DNA of 64,000 nt from Verrucomicrobiota bacterium (GTDB lineage Bacteria; Verrucomicrobiota; Verrucomicrobiia; Chthoniobacterales; UBA6821). Below are positions 39,117 through 50,701 of the stretch, piece after piece. Location: contig JAIOPL010000006.1 in assembly GCA_021413925.1 (NCBI GenBank), forward strand, positions 124,001 to 188,000, written 5' to 3'. The notes under the pieces are model-generated. The model saw nothing but the letters and a program-made list of their open reading frames with translations. It searched no databases and was not told the DNA's origin. Positions within the stretch are counted from its first letter, which is position 1. The number at the start of each line of letters is the position of its first letter. A program made the translations under genes and the position numbers.

Positions 39117-41660
39117 TTAAAATTCCGCCGGTTTCGGGGCGGGTATTGTCATGACGGGCGCAGCGCTCTGCAGATCCATCGGGCGGACGGGTTCCGCCTT
39201 CCTCACCTCTTTCTCACCGAGCGGCAGGGCAACAGCCACATTGGTTGATCCTCCCTTGCCGTCGGTTCCGGGATCCTTGCCGTCAGGTGATATGGCACGG
39301 GCCACCTTGATATTCGCATCCTCGGCAACTCCCACACTCAGGGTTGGATTCACCGATCGGTAGAGATCATTCTGGGCCAGAAGAGTCGGGGCATTGATGG
39401 GAATCGGACGAACACGTGTCAGATCGACCGCTGCGGCCGCTCTGGGCCATTCAGCCTGGTCGATGTCGCGGTTGTAACTCCTCACCCCTCCCCCGTGGGT
39501 ATCGCAGGACTCCGTGGGCATCTCGGCCTCCGTGGCATACTCGCTAGCAACCATTCCCGGGAGCTTCCGGCATCCCTCGGCGGCAAGCAGCCCTGAACTT
39601 CTGCAGATCGCGACCTGCTTCAAGCCCGCGGGCAGAGTCAGAGACTTAGAGGGAAAGGATCCCATCGAAGCGTTCATCACCTGGGCCCAGATTGGAAGAG
39701 CCAGATCCTTGCCGAAGGCTCCGCGGTAGATCTTCTGAGGCTTGTCGAATCCGATCCAGACACCGCAGGTCACGGCGCTTGAGTAACCCAAAAACCAAGT
39801 GTCGGTGAAATCGTACGCCGTTCCTGATTTGCCCGCCAGCACTGTATTCGTTGAGATCCCCGAGGCAGCCGCCTCCTGAGCACAGGCCTTGAAGAGGGCA
39901 TCCTGAAGGACGGTATGCACCTGATAGGCTGCCTCGGCAGGGAGCACCGGGACACGGGTCACAGGATTCTCATACAGGAGACTCCCCTCCTGATCGGTGA
40001 TCCGCGTGATCGTGAAGAGCTTGGCCGGGCGCGTCCCTCCACCCGGGAAGGCCATGTAGGCAAGGGTCAGTTCATCAAGGCACATCTCGCTGGAGCCGAG
40101 ATAAGCATTGGCCACATCTCGGAGCGGAGATCGAATGCCGGCGGCCTTGCAGAATCCGTTGAGCTGATCGAGGCCGGTTTTATAACCGAGACGAACGACG
40201 GCGGCGTTTTTGCCGCGGGCCACAGCCTCACTCGAAGGCATCGGCCCCTCATACTCGTTGTCAGCACGTTCCACTCCCCATTCCCCCAGGATGCCGTTGA
40301 CTCCACCGATCATCACGAAGTGATTGTCAATGCAGTCATCGTCGACAGACTCTCCCGGGAAGAGCCCGTTAGCATAGGCGGCGGCGGCCACCATGGGGGT
40401 GAAGAGGGTTCCGGGCGGACGGCGTCCCTGGAGGGCGCGGTTGTATTCGCTGTGCAGGAAGTCACGACCGCCGGCAACAGCCAGGATGCCCCCCGTGGCA
40501 TTATCCACCGCCAGAACCGCACCCTGGAGATAGCCGGGAGGAGGCATCGTGACCGACTCTCCACGCTGTGCCGCCTCTTCCATCTTCGCATTGATCTGGT
40601 GGTACTGCTGGTAGGTGATGTGAGCGAAGCCTAGCTGGCTCTCAACCTGTGTCAGATGGCTTTTCAACGCGCGTTCCGCCGCCATCTGGAGCTTGGCATC
40701 GAAGGTCGTCTCGATCTTCACCCCCTCGTTCATCGCCGTGTCATATCCCAGTGCCGCAATAGCCTGCTGGCGGACCAGGTCGATGGCATAGGAGACCCTG
40801 TTCGGATTCGTCCTCTTGCGAACTGAAAGGTTCAGTTCCACGGCAGCGTCGTATTCATCGCGCGTGATCAGGTGCATCTCCCTCATGCGACCCAGAACGA
40901 AATTCCGGACCTTCTTTGCACCCTTGGGGTTATTCCAGGGAGAGTAGAAATTGGGACTCTTGAGCAGGCCCGCGAGCATGGCGCATTCTCCGACACTCAG
41001 ATCCTTGGCAGCCTTCCAGAAGTAGCCCCTGGCAGCAGCCTCGACCCCGTAGAACCCGCTCCCGAAGTAAACGCGATTCAGGTAATACTCCATGATCTTC
41101 TCCTTGGAGAGATGATCCTCGATTCGTTCGGCCAGGAACATTTCCAAGAGCTTGCGACGGTAGCTCTTCTCATGCAGGTCGAACGAGTTTCGAGCCAACT
41201 GCTGGGTCACCGTACTGGCTCCCTGCTTCACCTTACCCTGGTGCCAATTACTGACCGCCGCACGCATCACTCCGAAGTAATCGACGCCGTGATGATCGAA
41301 GAACCTATTGTCCTCCTCCGCGACAACGGCATTCACCATCTCCTTAGGGATCTGATCATAGGGAATGGGCAGGCGATTCTGGATGAAGATCTTGCCCATC
41401 TGCTGAGCATTGCGATCCAGGATGACGCTCGCCGACTCCATCTTGGGGATCTTAGCCAGATCAAAGGAGTCAGCCTTGGCCTTGAACTCCGAAACCAGCC
41501 ATCCGTAGACGATCAGGGCCCCCAGCGAAGTCAGGATCAGGAGCGTTATTGGCACGAGAAACCAGAGCCGTAGAAACCATGGCTTCCGACGACGTTCCCT
41601 ACCCTCTTCCCAACTGTAGCGATGGCGTGCGATCCGCCATATTTTCCATGAAAAGGGCAC
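39117..41660 (-). CDS. Class A penicillin-binding protein with atypical transpeptidase site
   Basis: 847 residues from GTG 41660. A basic cytoplasmic start is followed by one membrane anchor (about residues 33-54), then a GT51 glycosyltransferase domain: AEEDNRFFDHHGVDYFGV, GASTVTQQLARN, EMFLAERIEDHLSKEKIMEYYLN. The transpeptidase domain follows. The KSG block is present (AGKSGTAYDF), but the SxxK position reads GTLFTP (Thr418 and Thr421) and the SxN position reads GKN (483-485). Glycan polymerisation should be intact; acylation by the usual Ser is not possible as read. The C-terminal 100 residues are Pro/Ala-rich. It is 66 bases after galT on the same strand. Confidence 0.85.
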   Translation of the reverse strand: MPFSWKIWRIARHRYSWEEGRERRRKPWFLRLWFLVPITLLILTSLGALIVYGWLVSEFKAKADSFDLAKIPKMESASVILDRNAQQMGKIFIQNRLPIPYDQIPKEMVNAVVAEEDNRFFDHHGVDYFGVMRAAVSNWHQGKVKQGASTVTQQLARNSFDLHEKSYRRKLLEMFLAERIEDHLSKEKIMEYYLNRVYFGSGFYGVEAAARGYFWKAAKDLSVGECAMLAGLLKSPNFYSPWNNPKGAKKVRNFVLGRMREMHLITRDEYDAAVELNLSVRKRTNPNRVSYAIDLVRQQAIAALGYDTAMNEGVKIETTFDAKLQMAAERALKSHLTQVESQLGFAHITYQQYHQINAKMEEAAQRGESVTMPPPGYLQGAVLAVDNATGGILAVAGGRDFLHSEYNRALQGRRPPGTLFTPMVAAAAYANGLFPGESVDDDCIDNHFVMIGGVNGILGEWGVERADNEYEGPMPSSEAVARGKNAAVVRLGYKTGLDQLNGFCKAAGIRSPLRDVANAYLGSSEMCLDELTLAYMAFPGGGTRPAKLFTITRITDQEGSLLYENPVTRVPVLPAEAAYQVHTVLQDALFKACAQEAAASGISTNTVLAGKSGTAYDFTDTWFLGYSSAVTCGVWIGFDKPQKIYRGAFGKDLALPIWAQVMNASMGSFPSKSLTLPAGLKQVAICRSSGLLAAEGCRKLPGMVASEYATEAEMPTESCDTHGGGVRSYNRDIDQAEWPRAAAAVDLTRVRPIPINAPTLLAQNDLYRSVNPTLSVGVAEDANIKVARAISPDGKDPGTDGKGGSTNVAVALPLGEKEVRKAEPVRPMDLQSAAPVMTIPAPKPAEF

Positions 41661-45913: not shown

Positions 45914-48900
45914 TTAAGCTCTGCGGCTCCGACTGATCAGGCTGCTTAGGTAGCCACTTAGGACTCCGCGGTTAGCAAAGAGCATCCAACCGAGCAGCAG
46001 GATTGCCGCGACGATCACACTCGGTTCAGGAACAGGGACGATCTCAGTAAGACCTCCTGCTGCGGTGAACCCACCGATACCAAGGAAGGTCGATGATCCG
46101 ATGCCGCCGCTGTAGAAGTGAATATTAGCAAGAGTCAACCCTGAATCAGTATCACCCAACTTATCGTAAAGGCGAGTAGAGCCAGCAACGTAGTTGTAGA
46201 CGAACAGAGTGTTTGATCCGTTATTGATGCTTCCGAAGGTCAGCGAGGAAGTACCCGAGAGAGCCGAGAAGTCGATCGTGCTGTTGGCTGTGAGCGTCAG
46301 GCTCTTGAAGGTCTGGCTAGAGGCGCGGGCTCCGCCCGTGCCTGCGGCTCCCATGGAGAGAGTACCACCATTGAGGTTAAGCACAGCGTTTGTGTTGATG
46401 CTGTTAGCCGTCGTGGAGCCTAGCAGGAGGGTGGATCCGGCATTCACCGTCACATTGGTTGTCCCGGAGAGTCTACCAGTTGTGCCGAGGCTAAGTGGCC
46501 CGTTATTGACAGTGGTGGTGCCTGTGTAGCTATTGTTACCGCTGAGACTCAACGTTCCTGTACCAGTCTTGCTCAACCCAAGCTCGGATCCGCTAATATT
46601 TCCACCGAGGAGTAGGGTCTTGGCCGCCACGTTAATTGTGGAGTTGCCCTGAAGGGAGATCGCACCCGTGTTCTGAGATAGATTCCCTGAACCGAGGAAG
46701 GTGAAGCTGTTCAGGTTAATTGCATTGTTGATGCTGACATCACCTCCCGAGGTATTGTTGAGGGTAGTGCCGCTAGTGATCGTCAATGTTCCGGTTCCAA
46801 GCGCGGAGTTGTTATTGATGTTCAACACTCCTGAGTTGAGCAGAGTGCCACCCGAGTAGTTGTTGTTAGCACTGAGGGTTGCAGACGAACCTGAGAGGTT
46901 CAATGCTCCCTGACCAGTGATGTTTGTATTCACTAGGAAGTCACCATTCTGGAGTTGAAGGGTTGATGAGTTGGCGAGGCTGATCGTCCCGGTGAGAGTG
47001 GCATTAGTAGCATTACCGTCGATGATACTTGTTCCTCCACCGGAGACCGAGATGGCATTGCCAAAGGATGTCGCCGGGATGCCCTTGTAGGCAAGCGTGC
47101 TGCCGCCTTGCATACCTATGGAACCAGTACCCAGTGAGGAGCTGGAACTGAAGTTGAGGGTGCCACTATTCAGCGAGATGCCGCCAGAGAAGGTGTTATT
47201 CCCAGCGAGCGTGACCGCTCCGTTTCCGCTCTTGGTGAGGGCGCCAGCTCCAGCGATCGATCCGTCGAAGGTGTTGGTGCCGCTACTATTGGACAGGGTC
47301 AGAGTGCCGCCGCTGTTGGTCACACTGCCGCTTCCGGTCAGCCCAGCCAGTGTTTGGTTGAATCCGCCAAGGTTCAGGGTGGCACCATTGGAGACTGCTA
47401 CGGTGGCGCTGCTGCTCAGGCGGTCTGCGCTGCCTGAAGTAAGGGTGCCGCTGTTCACGTTGACGGCCGTGGCTGCGGCCGCGCCGTTGAAGAGAGTATT
47501 TCCGCCGACGTTGATCGTGCCGCCGCCCAGGTTCGCATTGATCGTGCCATCATTAAGGGCGTAGGTGGCCGCAGTCAGGGTGCCTGTTCCTCCAAGAGTA
47601 CCATTGGTCAGCGTCAGCGATCCAATGTTTTGATTGGTTCCAAGCGTCACCGTTGCATTGTTACTGATAGTCAAGGCAGCAGAGCTGCTGGTCAGCTGAC
47701 CATTGAGGATCAAGGTTCCGTTGGTTGCATTCACCACGGAGGCTCCCGCGTTGCCACTCAGAGTTGCCGTACCTCCCACAAAAAGGGTTCCTCCACCAAG
47801 ATTTGCACTCACCGTACCACCATTGAGTTGGTAGGTTCCTGCTGTCAGGGTCAGACCAGTACCAGCAAGAGTTCCACCAGAGTTGGTGAAGGAGCTGATG
47901 GTTTCTGCTCCGGCGAGGGTCAGGCCACCGCTTGCGATATTGAGCGTGGAGCTATTGCTGAAGCGTCCCGCAGAGCCGAGGGTCGTCGTGCCGGTCGAGA
48001 CCGTGATGGCTCCCGCTCCGAGGTTCGCGTTGATCGTGCCGCCATTGAGGGCGTAAGTGGTAGCCGTGAGGGTGCCGGTGCCGCCCAGGGTACCCGAGTT
48101 GGTGAAGCTGGCCACCGTCTCATTGCCGCCGAGGGTGAGGCCGCCACTGGAGATATTGACAGAGGAGCCACTGTTGAGACGTCCCGCGGAGCCGAGGGTC
48201 GCGTTGCCTCCCACGCTCACTGCACCGTTACCCAGGATGCTGAAGATCGTGCCGCCATTGAGGGCGTAGGAGGCCGCAGTCAGGGTGCCGTTGGTGATCG
48301 ATCCGCCCGCGATCGTGAAGGTGCTGTTGGTACGGCTGAAGGTTCCGAGATTGAGTGTGCCGCCATTGATCGTGAGGGTGCCGTTGGTGTCGCCGAGTGC
48401 CGTGTTGGCACCGGAGAGGAGGAGGGTGCCACCGTTGACGGTGGTGTTTCCGCTGTAGGTGTTGGCTGCTGAGAGGGTCAGTGTTCCAGAGCCACTCTTG
48501 GAAAGGGCACCAGAACCGCCGATCGCTCCGCTGAGGGTCAGGGCTGTGGTGGATCCGGTCACTTCGAAGATGCCTGTGGTTCCCGATGCCATGGTGAACT
48601 TCTTGGAGGAGCTGGCCGTTGCGCCCGTGAAGGAGAGGGTTCCGGTCTTTCCACTGCTTCCGAGGGTGACTGCATTGGTGCTGCTGCCTAGGGTGCCAGT
48701 TACACTCTCGTTATTGATTGTGTTGATGGAGAGAGTTCCTTCATTCACGAAGAGGGCGCCTCCGAATTGGTTCATACCGCTGAGGATCAGTGTGCCTGCG
48801 CCTAATTTGGTTTGTGTGGTATTGATGTTTCCTCCATTTATAGTTCCGGAGAGGGTCAGGGCGGTATCAGATCTTGTCACTTCGAAGGCGCCGCTAGCTC

Positions 48901-50701
48901 CAGAGTTATTCATTGAAAAATTCTTGGTCGAGCTGGCCGTCGCGCCAGTGTAGGAGATAGTTCCGGTCTTTCCAGTGGTACCTAGAACAACTGCATTACC
49001 CGTACCAAGAACGCCGATTGCTCCTCCATTGTTAATCGAGGCAATGGAGAGGGTACCATCCTGTACGGCTACACCTCCTTGGAAAGTATTGTTACCGCTC
49101 AATGTCAGGGTGCCGGTACCGGTCTTGGTAAAGCCGCCGGTGTTGGTGAGAGTCCCGGCGAAGGTCACGGCACTGTTGATCGTTAGGGTGCGGGAGATGG
49201 TGCCGAGATCGCCGGTACCGCTGAAGGTGAGGGCGCCGTTATTGAGACTGCTGCTGCTGCCAATTGAGGAGTTGGCCGTGAAGGCGAAGTTGTTGGCCAG
49301 GGTGCGGGCGTTGGTGCTGTCGGAGCTGAGGTTGCCGCCATTGATCACGAGAGTTCCGGTTCCGAGGGCGTTGTTATTCCCGATCTGGAGAGTGCCGGCG
49401 CTGACGGTGGTGGTGCCGGAATAGGTATTGGCACGGGTGAGGATCAAGTCGGCTCCTCCGGTCTTTGTGAGGGAAACTCCATTACCGCCAAGGATGGCGC
49501 TGATGGTCGCCCCAGTTGAGCCGTTGGTGGCGTTGTAACTGGAACCGGTGAGGACGCCGGTAGTGCCGGTGATCGTAGCACCATTGCCGATGGTGACTGC
49601 ACCAACCGTGTCGCTGAATGAACCGATGTCGAGGGTGCCGCCGTTGACGCTCACTGCACCTGTGTTGTCGAGCGCGTTGTCAATTCCAAAGGCCAAGGTG
49701 CCGGTGCTGACAATGGTGCCGCCGGTGTAGGTGTTGACAGCGGATAGGGTCAATGTGGACAAGGTGCCGGTCTTGGTGAGGCCGCCAGATCCAGAGATGG
49801 CTCCGGATTGGGTGGTGGAGGCGTTATTGCCGCCAACGGTGAGGGTGACGGCGCTTCCGGTATCATTGTTGAGGGCGAGAGCCGACGATGCTCCCAGCCC
49901 GCCGAAGGTGGCGCCGGTGAGGCTTCCGAAGCTGAGGATGCCGGAACCGCCGAGGAAGGTAGAGCTGGCGAGGGCGGCACTATTAGAAAGTGTCAGTTGG
50001 CCTGCGGAGAGGGTCGTGGTGCCGGAGAAGGTATTGGCACCCGATAGGGTCAGGTTGCCGTTGCCGTCTTTTACGAGGGTGGTGATTCCGGTGCCTTGGT
50101 TTGCAATAACTCCGGAAATCGTGGTGTTCCCAGAGCCAGTCACGGTGAGCGTGGAACTCAAGTTATTGGCTGTCCTGACTCCCGATGAGACGGTGAGCAG
50201 GCTCGAGGAGTTATTGGCCCATGTCTGGCTTCCGTTGAGGAAGATAAAACCGTTTGTCAAGGTGGCTGCCCCAGCGTTGGCAAAGATATTGATTCCGCTT
50301 GTTCCCAAGGTGAGCTGGGTGATGGTGATGGTCGTGGCCGCCGTGGCGGTGGTACCGTCACCGAAGACCAGGCCGCCGATCGTGGTTGTTCCAGCGGTCG
50401 GCTGGAATGCATAGCTTGTCTGGTTAAAACGCGCGATGCCGGTGCTACCGGGGGCAGATCCCGTGGACCAGTTTCCGCCGGTGGCCCAATTTGTCGAACC
50501 TGCATTGCTCTTCCAGTCGGTCGTGGTCTGCGCCTTGGCCACACCGGGAAGGAGGAGGAGGAGGAGGATGGAAAGGCTAAAGGCTAAAGGCTGAAGGCTA
50601 AAACGGAGGAGACTGAAGGCTGAGCCAAAGAGCGAAGCGGCGGGCCGAGCGGAACGAGCGAAGCTTGATGGGATGAGGGCGTGGGTGGGCATGCTGTGCA
50701 T
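45914..50701 (-). CDS. Giant autotransporter-associated beta-strand-repeat PEP-CTERM protein
   Basis: 1595 residues from ATG 50701; ATG 50692 is possible. A long N-region then the hydrophobic FSLSILLLLLLPGVAKA form a signal peptide cleaved before QTTTDW. The body is built of dozens of 12-20-residue repeats such as GTLTLSGNNTFQGG, SGSGTLTLSAANTYSG, GGTLNLGTFSRT and TLGSAGRF, the beta-helix-forming autotransporter-associated repeat. It is almost wholly Gly/Ser/Thr/Asn/Leu with no Cys in the repeats. The C-terminus is VPVPEPSVIVAAILLLGW then RSRRA, a PEP-CTERM sorting tag, instead of a beta-barrel. It is probably sorted by an exosortase and displayed in the exopolysaccharide. The codon text itself is repetitive, so recombination may change its length. 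Confidence 0.85.
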   Translation of the reverse strand: MHSMPTHALIPSSFARSARPAASLFGSAFSLLRFSLQPLAFSLSILLLLLLPGVAKAQTTTDWKSNAGSTNWATGGNWSTGSAPGSTGIARFNQTSYAFQPTAGTTTIGGLVFGDGTTATAATTITITQLTLGTSGINIFANAGAATLTNGFIFLNGSQTWANNSSSLLTVSSGVRTANNLSSTLTVTGSGNTTISGVIANQGTGITTLVKDGNGNLTLSGANTFSGTTTLSAGQLTLSNSAALASSTFLGGSGILSFGSLTGATFGGLGASSALALNNDTGSAVTLTVGGNNASTTQSGAISGSGGLTKTGTLSTLTLSAVNTYTGGTIVSTGTLAFGIDNALDNTGAVSVNGGTLDIGSFSDTVGAVTIGNGATITGTTGVLTGSSYNATNGSTGATISAILGGNGVSLTKTGGADLILTRANTYSGTTTVSAGTLQIGNNNALGTGTLVINGGNLSSDSTNARTLANNFAFTANSSIGSSSSLNNGALTFSGTGDLGTISRTLTINSAVTFAGTLTNTGGFTKTGTGTLTLSGNNTFQGGVAVQDGTLSIASINNGGAIGVLGTGNAVVLGTTGKTGTISYTGATASSTKNFSMNNSGASGAFEVTRSDTALTLSGTINGGNINTTQTKLGAGTLILSGMNQFGGALFVNEGTLSINTINNESVTGTLGSSTNAVTLGSSGKTGTLSFTGATASSSKKFTMASGTTGIFEVTGSTTALTLSGAIGGSGALSKSGSGTLTLSAANTYSGNTTVNGGTLLLSGANTALGDTNGTLTINGGTLNLGTFSRTNSTFTIAGGSITNGTLTAASYALNGGTIFSILGNGAVSVGGNATLGSAGRLNSGSSVNISSGGLTLGGNETVASFTNSGTLGGTGTLTATTYALNGGTINANLGAGAITVSTGTTTLGSAGRFSNSSTLNIASGGLTLAGAETISSFTNSGGTLAGTGLTLTAGTYQLNGGTVSANLGGGTLFVGGTATLSGNAGASVVNATNGTLILNGQLTSSSAALTISNNATVTLGTNQNIGSLTLTNGTLGGTGTLTAATYALNDGTINANLGGGTINVGGNTLFNGAAAATAVNVNSGTLTSGSADRLSSSATVAVSNGATLNLGGFNQTLAGLTGSGSVTNSGGTLTLSNSSGTNTFDGSIAGAGALTKSGNGAVTLAGNNTFSGGISLNSGTLNFSSSSSLGTGSIGMQGGSTLAYKGIPATSFGNAISVSGGGTSIIDGNATNATLTGTISLANSSTLQLQNGDFLVNTNITGQGALNLSGSSATLSANNNYSGGTLLNSGVLNINNNSALGTGTLTITSGTTLNNTSGGDVSINNAINLNSFTFLGSGNLSQNTGAISLQGNSTINVAAKTLLLGGNISGSELGLSKTGTGTLSLSGNNSYTGTTTVNNGPLSLGTTGRLSGTTNVTVNAGSTLLLGSTTANSINTNAVLNLNGGTLSMGAAGTGGARASSQTFKSLTLTANSTIDFSALSGTSSLTFGSINNGSNTLFVYNYVAGSTRLYDKLGDTDSGLTLANIHFYSGGIGSSTFLGIGGFTAAGGLTEIVPVPEPSVIVAAILLLGWMLFANRGVLSGYLSSLISRSRRA
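50566..50616 (-). repeat. AGCCTTTAGCC iterated tract inside the PEP-CTERM gene start
   Basis: On the coding strand CCGTTTTAGCCTTCAGCC then TTTAGCCTTTAGCCTTTCC encodes part of the signal-peptide n/h region (RFSLQPLAFSLS). It is nearly the same text that precedes the xylB start at 10365-10410, there untranslated. Confidence 0.6.

Follow-up and report, generated by a model that had tools for sequence, protein, structure and literature searches.

The window analysed here, a 64,000-nucleotide stretch of a Verrucomicrobiota genome from the order Chthoniobacterales, carries on its minus strand a gene for a class A penicillin-binding protein (PBP). Orthologues of this protein are referred to as group A and its canonical class A paralogue as group B. 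The features of the gene are as follows:

39117..41660, minus strand: class A PBP gene, group A orthologue with putative pseudo-transpeptidase; GTG start, 847 aa
41481..41567, minus strand: N-terminal transmembrane helix, residues 32-60 (within predicted helix 32-65), from sequence and AlphaFold2 model
40884..41384, minus strand: GT51 transglycosylase domain, residues 93-259 (Pfam PF00912, E 1e-62, 211 bits)
41313..41315, minus strand: Glu116, first glycosyltransferase (GT) catalytic glutamate, in 137/137 group A rows covering it
41142..41144, minus strand: Glu173, second conserved GT glutamate, in 139/139 group A rows covering it
39774..40523, minus strand: transpeptidase (TP)-fold domain, residues 380-629, with degenerate catalytic motifs (Pfam PF00905, weak, 44.8 bits)
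40398..40409, minus strand: degenerate SxxK, T418-L-F-T421, from alignment to solved class A PBPs
40278..40328, minus strand: group A block DNxxVMIGGxxGILGEW, residues 445-461, ahead of the SxN site, (nearly) invariant in three group A alignments
40206..40214, minus strand: degenerate SxN, G483-K-N485, from sequence and motif tally
39822..39830, minus strand: KTG-type motif kept, K611-S-G613; Lys611 in 144/144 group A sequences
39117..39641, minus strand: C-terminal extension, residues 674-847, with conserved Cys686, Cys697, Cys719 and His722, then a disordered tail, from alignment and model

The protein has the architecture of a class A PBP (a transmembrane helix, a GT51 domain, and a C-terminal PF00905 domain), and the presence of PF00905 separates it from the monofunctional GT51 enzymes (MGT). 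Its best NCBIfam match is TIGR02074 (PBP_1a_fam) at 460.1 bits, under the curated cut-off of 508.75 bits. The GT51 motifs GASTxTQQ and RK..E are present along with both catalytic glutamates. Of the residues expected of a D,D-transpeptidase, the serine and lysine of SxxK are absent, SxN is replaced by GKN, and KSG is present; the segment RPPGTLFTP aligns gap-free to the SxxK segment (GSSFKP/GSTIKP) of solved class A PBPs. These alignments uphold an earlier note, made from the sequence alone, that had described the loss of the SxxK serine and lysine and of the SxN serine next to intact glycosyltransferase motifs and KSG. A nearby alternative Ser-x-x-Lys, which that note had named as evidence against its reading, was looked for and did not turn up, since residues 340-700, which include the TP domain, contain neither Ser-x-x-Lys nor Thr-x-x-Lys. 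In an AlphaFold2 model built with 41 orthologues, mean pLDDT is 83 and most of the TP domain lies above 90, with the helix that bears the SxxK position spanning residues 417-430. In Foldseek, this predicted model matches class A PBPs in the PDB best, E. coli PBP1b among them (top hit 5hlb, E 4.8e-37).

Fourteen of the 15 same-genus genomes have a group A protein (70-94% identity), the one without (G011) being only 76% complete, and the group occurs throughout the order. Named records belong to Chthoniobacterales / Spartobacteria and include Chthoniobacter flavus Ellin428 and Ca. Udaeobacter. A class-wide search found group A in two further families, f15 and f34, which we take to be Verrucomicrobiales, and did not find it in the remaining families of the class-wide sample. 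In one f15 genome (G082), the 16S primer sites AM1 and AM2, which are specific to Akkermansia, each occur three times, about 329 bases apart, and we therefore take this genome to be Akkermansia muciniphila.

The catalytic motifs were tallied in 144 distinct group A sequences and in 50 B-type sequences drawn from these and related genomes, most of which are metagenome assemblies. Of 143 group A sequences, 137 have Thr at position 418 and 6 have Ser. Lys occupies position 421 in 24 of 144, the others having T, L, V, F, I, H, Q, A, S or G. Among the same 144, position 483 is Ser in 88 and Gly in 55, position 485 is Asn in 116 and Ile in 21, and Lys611 is invariant. All catalytic residues are canonical in 50/50 group B sequences. 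The group A protein of A. muciniphila reads GTAILP / SKI / KTGT and its paralogue GSLFKP / SRN / KTGT, while C. flavus has a TxxK form of group A, GTAFKP/SKN/KTGT. The full Ser-Lys-Ser-Asn set occurs in only five group A members (L163, L174, L176, L177, and L269). The block DNxxVMIGGxxGILGEW, just N-terminal to SxN, is nearly invariant within the group. All same-genus genomes with a complete copy show the degenerate pattern, which also extends over two orders, and because of this recurrence it is not due to chance or sequencing error. The comparison with other verrucomicrobial class A PBPs, which the earlier note had suggested, indicates that degenerate TP motifs are an ancient trait of the whole group A orthologue set. 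One genome, G156, encodes a third, strongly diverged class A PBP of 697 aa (L213; G156:C1:363486-364433 and beyond), which reads GTAFLP / GKT / WGG and has also lost the KTG lysine. A 24,349-aa open frame at G014:C1:126996-128000 (L278) was set aside as an artefact because N masking covers 7,000 of the 15,000 bases retrieved there.

Group A forms a single clade (SH-aLRT 100) in trees computed after removal of the SxxK and SxN columns; its monophyly in an earlier tree was not rejected (AU p 0.555). Thr418 is basal on both sides of the clade, and the Ser418 members are nested inside Chthoniobacterales among Thr members, in a part of the tree where some nodes are unresolved. Minimal change counts are 3 for position 418, 6 for Lys421, 5 for Ser483, and 3 for Asn485. 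The simplest reading is one basal Ser-to-Thr change with up to two reversions, followed by repeated independent losses of Lys421 and the SxN residues. Some group A members may have retained or regained a plausible active site, since five carry the S-K-S-N set and are nested among Thr members. Across 34 genome pairs, mean TP-domain identity to the protein of the window genome is 0.64 for group A as well as group B, with TP/GT divergence ratios of 1.16 and 1.27, respectively. Median dN/dS within the genus is 0.055 for the group A TP domain versus 0.060 for that of group B (only 8 and 17 unsaturated pairs, respectively). Judged by these rates, the apparently dead TP domain is not decaying and is held as strictly as that of the working paralogue.

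The genome that carries the window (2.4 Mb, about 95.5% complete) encodes two GT51 proteins and five PF00905 proteins. Besides the window PBP, the PF00905 set consists of a class A paralogue of canonical type and three class B PBPs whose motifs are intact. The paralogue (GSSAKP / SRN / KTGT) is the second class A PBP that the earlier note had proposed seeking. Additionally, the genome encodes two SEDS proteins, three S11 D,D-carboxypeptidases, and seven YkuD L,D-transpeptidases, all with the catalytic motif S/T-[HY]-G-C-I-R. By names read from the sequences, galK-galT upstream and opcA-zwf-glyA downstream of the group A gene are conserved in the genus only, and recurrent neighbours outside the genus include a SIS-domain isomerase, glycosyltransferases, and EF-P. 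These are not cell-wall genes, and the neighbourhood is uninformative on function. Elsewhere in the window (45914-50701, minus strand) lies a gene for a 1595-aa low-complexity, autotransporter-type repeat protein with a tail (VPEP, a hydrophobic stretch, and basic residues) resembling a PEP-CTERM sorting signal.

The window PBP is probably a membrane-anchored GT51 glycan polymerase with a selectively maintained, non-catalytic pseudo-transpeptidase domain that forms no acyl-enzyme. A polymerase with a dead or repurposed TP domain, as the earlier note had supposed, is the best-supported reading because the GT residues are invariant, the TP catalysts are gone, the domain is under strong purifying selection, and a canonical paralogue is present; the GT activity of group A is likewise predicted from conserved residues. 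The window PBP would polymerise lipid II through its intact GT51 domain and would not cross-link through its own TP domain, leaving the strands to separate enzymes, which could be the canonical paralogue, class B PBPs, or YkuD L,D-transpeptidases. The pseudo-transpeptidase, which keeps Lys611 and most of the groove, may have a structural, regulatory, or stem-peptide-holding role. Two observations count against this reading: Thr418 is conserved far beyond what a site without a role would need, when position 421 takes at least ten residues, and the S-K-S-N set is complete in five members of group A. Since the acylated serine and the lysine are lost, it follows that the TP domain should be insensitive to beta-lactams on chemical grounds, a possibility the earlier note had raised, which does not imply resistance of the whole cell.

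Cross-linking of these strands could fall to L,D-transpeptidases in particular. The median number of YkuD domains is 9 per genome (2.9/Mb) in 78 genomes with group A versus 2 (0.57/Mb) in 158 genomes without it, where presence was assigned by family save in three genomes; family means differ by group A presence (Mann-Whitney p 1.6e-7, kinship uncorrected). Expansions of up to 15 YkuD L,D-transpeptidases per genome occur in Chthoniobacterales and Verrucomicrobiales (families f1-f13, f15, and f34). In G028 and G038, two single-contig genomes of 0.9 Mb from the same order, class A PBPs of groups A and B are both missing and L,D-transpeptidases number 0-1. A reduced symbiont would be expected to show this, and the two genomes probably belong to Xiphinematobacter. 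It is possible, and tentatively proposed, that the window PBP serves L,D-transpeptidases as a dedicated GT partner, with YkuD enzymes linking its strands 3-3 so that TP catalysis is dispensable. A precedent is the S510A mutant of E. coli PBP1b, in which transpeptidation is killed but glycan is still polymerised and a wall built by L,D-transpeptidases is supported (PMC5089857). The roughly fourfold YkuD excess supports such a partnership but does not establish it, being confounded by phylogeny: because group A is confined to two orders, the association may reflect one or two evolutionary events. Moreover, the gene neighbours are not those of a cell-wall locus, and Akkermansia peptidoglycan is listed in a review as type A1gamma, with direct 4-3 links (PMC11382707). 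Its wall therefore contains D,D-cross-links too, as expected from the paralogue and class B PBPs, which counts against an L,D-only wall. A dedicated partnership would in any case refine the pseudo-transpeptidase reading rather than displace it. A more elaborate version, which we consider doubtful, begins with an ancient class A PBP of the two orders whose nucleophile changed from Ser to Thr. This protein would later have specialised as a GT polymerase, its pseudo-transpeptidase groove keeping stem peptides in place for L,D-transpeptidase partners; beta-lactams would then be unable to acylate a polymerase that lays much of the new wall, in Akkermansia among others.

The strong conservation of Thr418 (137/143) raises an alternative in which the domain is still an enzyme, with Thr418 as nucleophile, a general base other than Lys421, and perhaps a different donor peptide. 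The 24 of 144 sequences that keep Lys421 do so mostly alongside Thr418, as in C. flavus (GTAFKP), so a TxxK state did exist. However, the lineage of the window has lost both the lysine and the SxN serine, Akkermansia lacks the lysine and the SxN asparagine, and no other S/TxxK lies within the TP domain. Thr418 could instead be a structural N-cap because it starts the predicted helix 417-430. Taken together, an active threonine enzyme appears improbable. Even less probable is that the protein acts only as a scaffold or regulator, exerting allosteric control over the canonical paralogue or the divisome with minor GT activity of its own: essential non-catalytic roles of PBPs are known, as for B. 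subtilis PBP2b (PMC12713402), but Glu116, Glu173, and the GT motifs do not vary in any group A sequence that covers them. Lastly, broken-looking motifs in genomes that are mostly metagenome assemblies might suggest sequencing error, chance, or a decaying pseudogene, a reading of negligible probability that is ruled out by 144 distinct sequences from many assemblies, full-length frames, and a dN/dS of about 0.05.

The pseudo-transpeptidase reading places group A close to several known systems. Like the PBP1A family (TIGR02074; with solved structures of E. coli PBP1b and Acinetobacter/Pseudomonas PBP1a), the window PBP has a transmembrane anchor, the GT51 glutamates, a TP fold, and a KTG-type motif; unlike that family, it is without the serine and lysine of SxxK and the serine of SxN and has the extra DNxxVMIGGxxGILGEW block and a C-terminal extension with conserved cysteines. 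Its predicted output, uncross-linked glycan, is that of the monofunctional GT51 enzymes (MtgA/MGT), which have no TP-fold domain, whereas the window PBP keeps one under selection. A further class A PBP, E. coli PBP1C (PbpC), is reported to be mainly a transglycosylase in vivo and resembles the window PBP in this presumed polymerase role, but it retains SxxK. PBP1b S510A matches the reading proposed for group A in that GT is active, TP is dead, and another enzyme cross-links the strands, but it is a laboratory mutant, not a natural conserved family (PMC5089857). B. subtilis PBP2b, a class B PBP whose catalysis is dispensable, likewise uses a transpeptidase fold in a non-catalytic role, but its active site is intact and it lacks a GT domain.

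Bifunctionality is the usual assumption when class A PBPs are annotated or modelled as drug targets; group A appears to be a natural GT-only PBP, widespread in abundant soil, lake, and gut bacteria and with intermediates (TxxK, SxxL) still visible. Counts of PF00905 domains would thus overstate cross-linking and beta-lactam targets. Group A also offers a natural experiment on non-catalytic roles of TP domains, with C. flavus and A. muciniphila both culturable. No description of a class-wide pseudo-transpeptidase class A PBP was found in the open-access papers searched. The cell-division table of the V. spinosum essential-gene paper is uninformative on the group A gene because the only PBPs it lists are class B (COG0768).

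Five fusion proteins of about 1335-1380 aa from other Verrucomicrobiota families (L217 in G072, L218 in G073, L201 in G080, and L220 and L221 in G104) combine GT51, a degenerate class A TP domain, PBP_dimer, and an intact class B transpeptidase (Pfam, 4/5). Their broken class A motifs read G[SA]xLQP / A- or G-N-x / MTG or similar, and no description of such a fusion was found in the literature searched. By joining a putative class A pseudo-transpeptidase in cis to a working transpeptidase, these proteins fit the division of labour proposed for group A.
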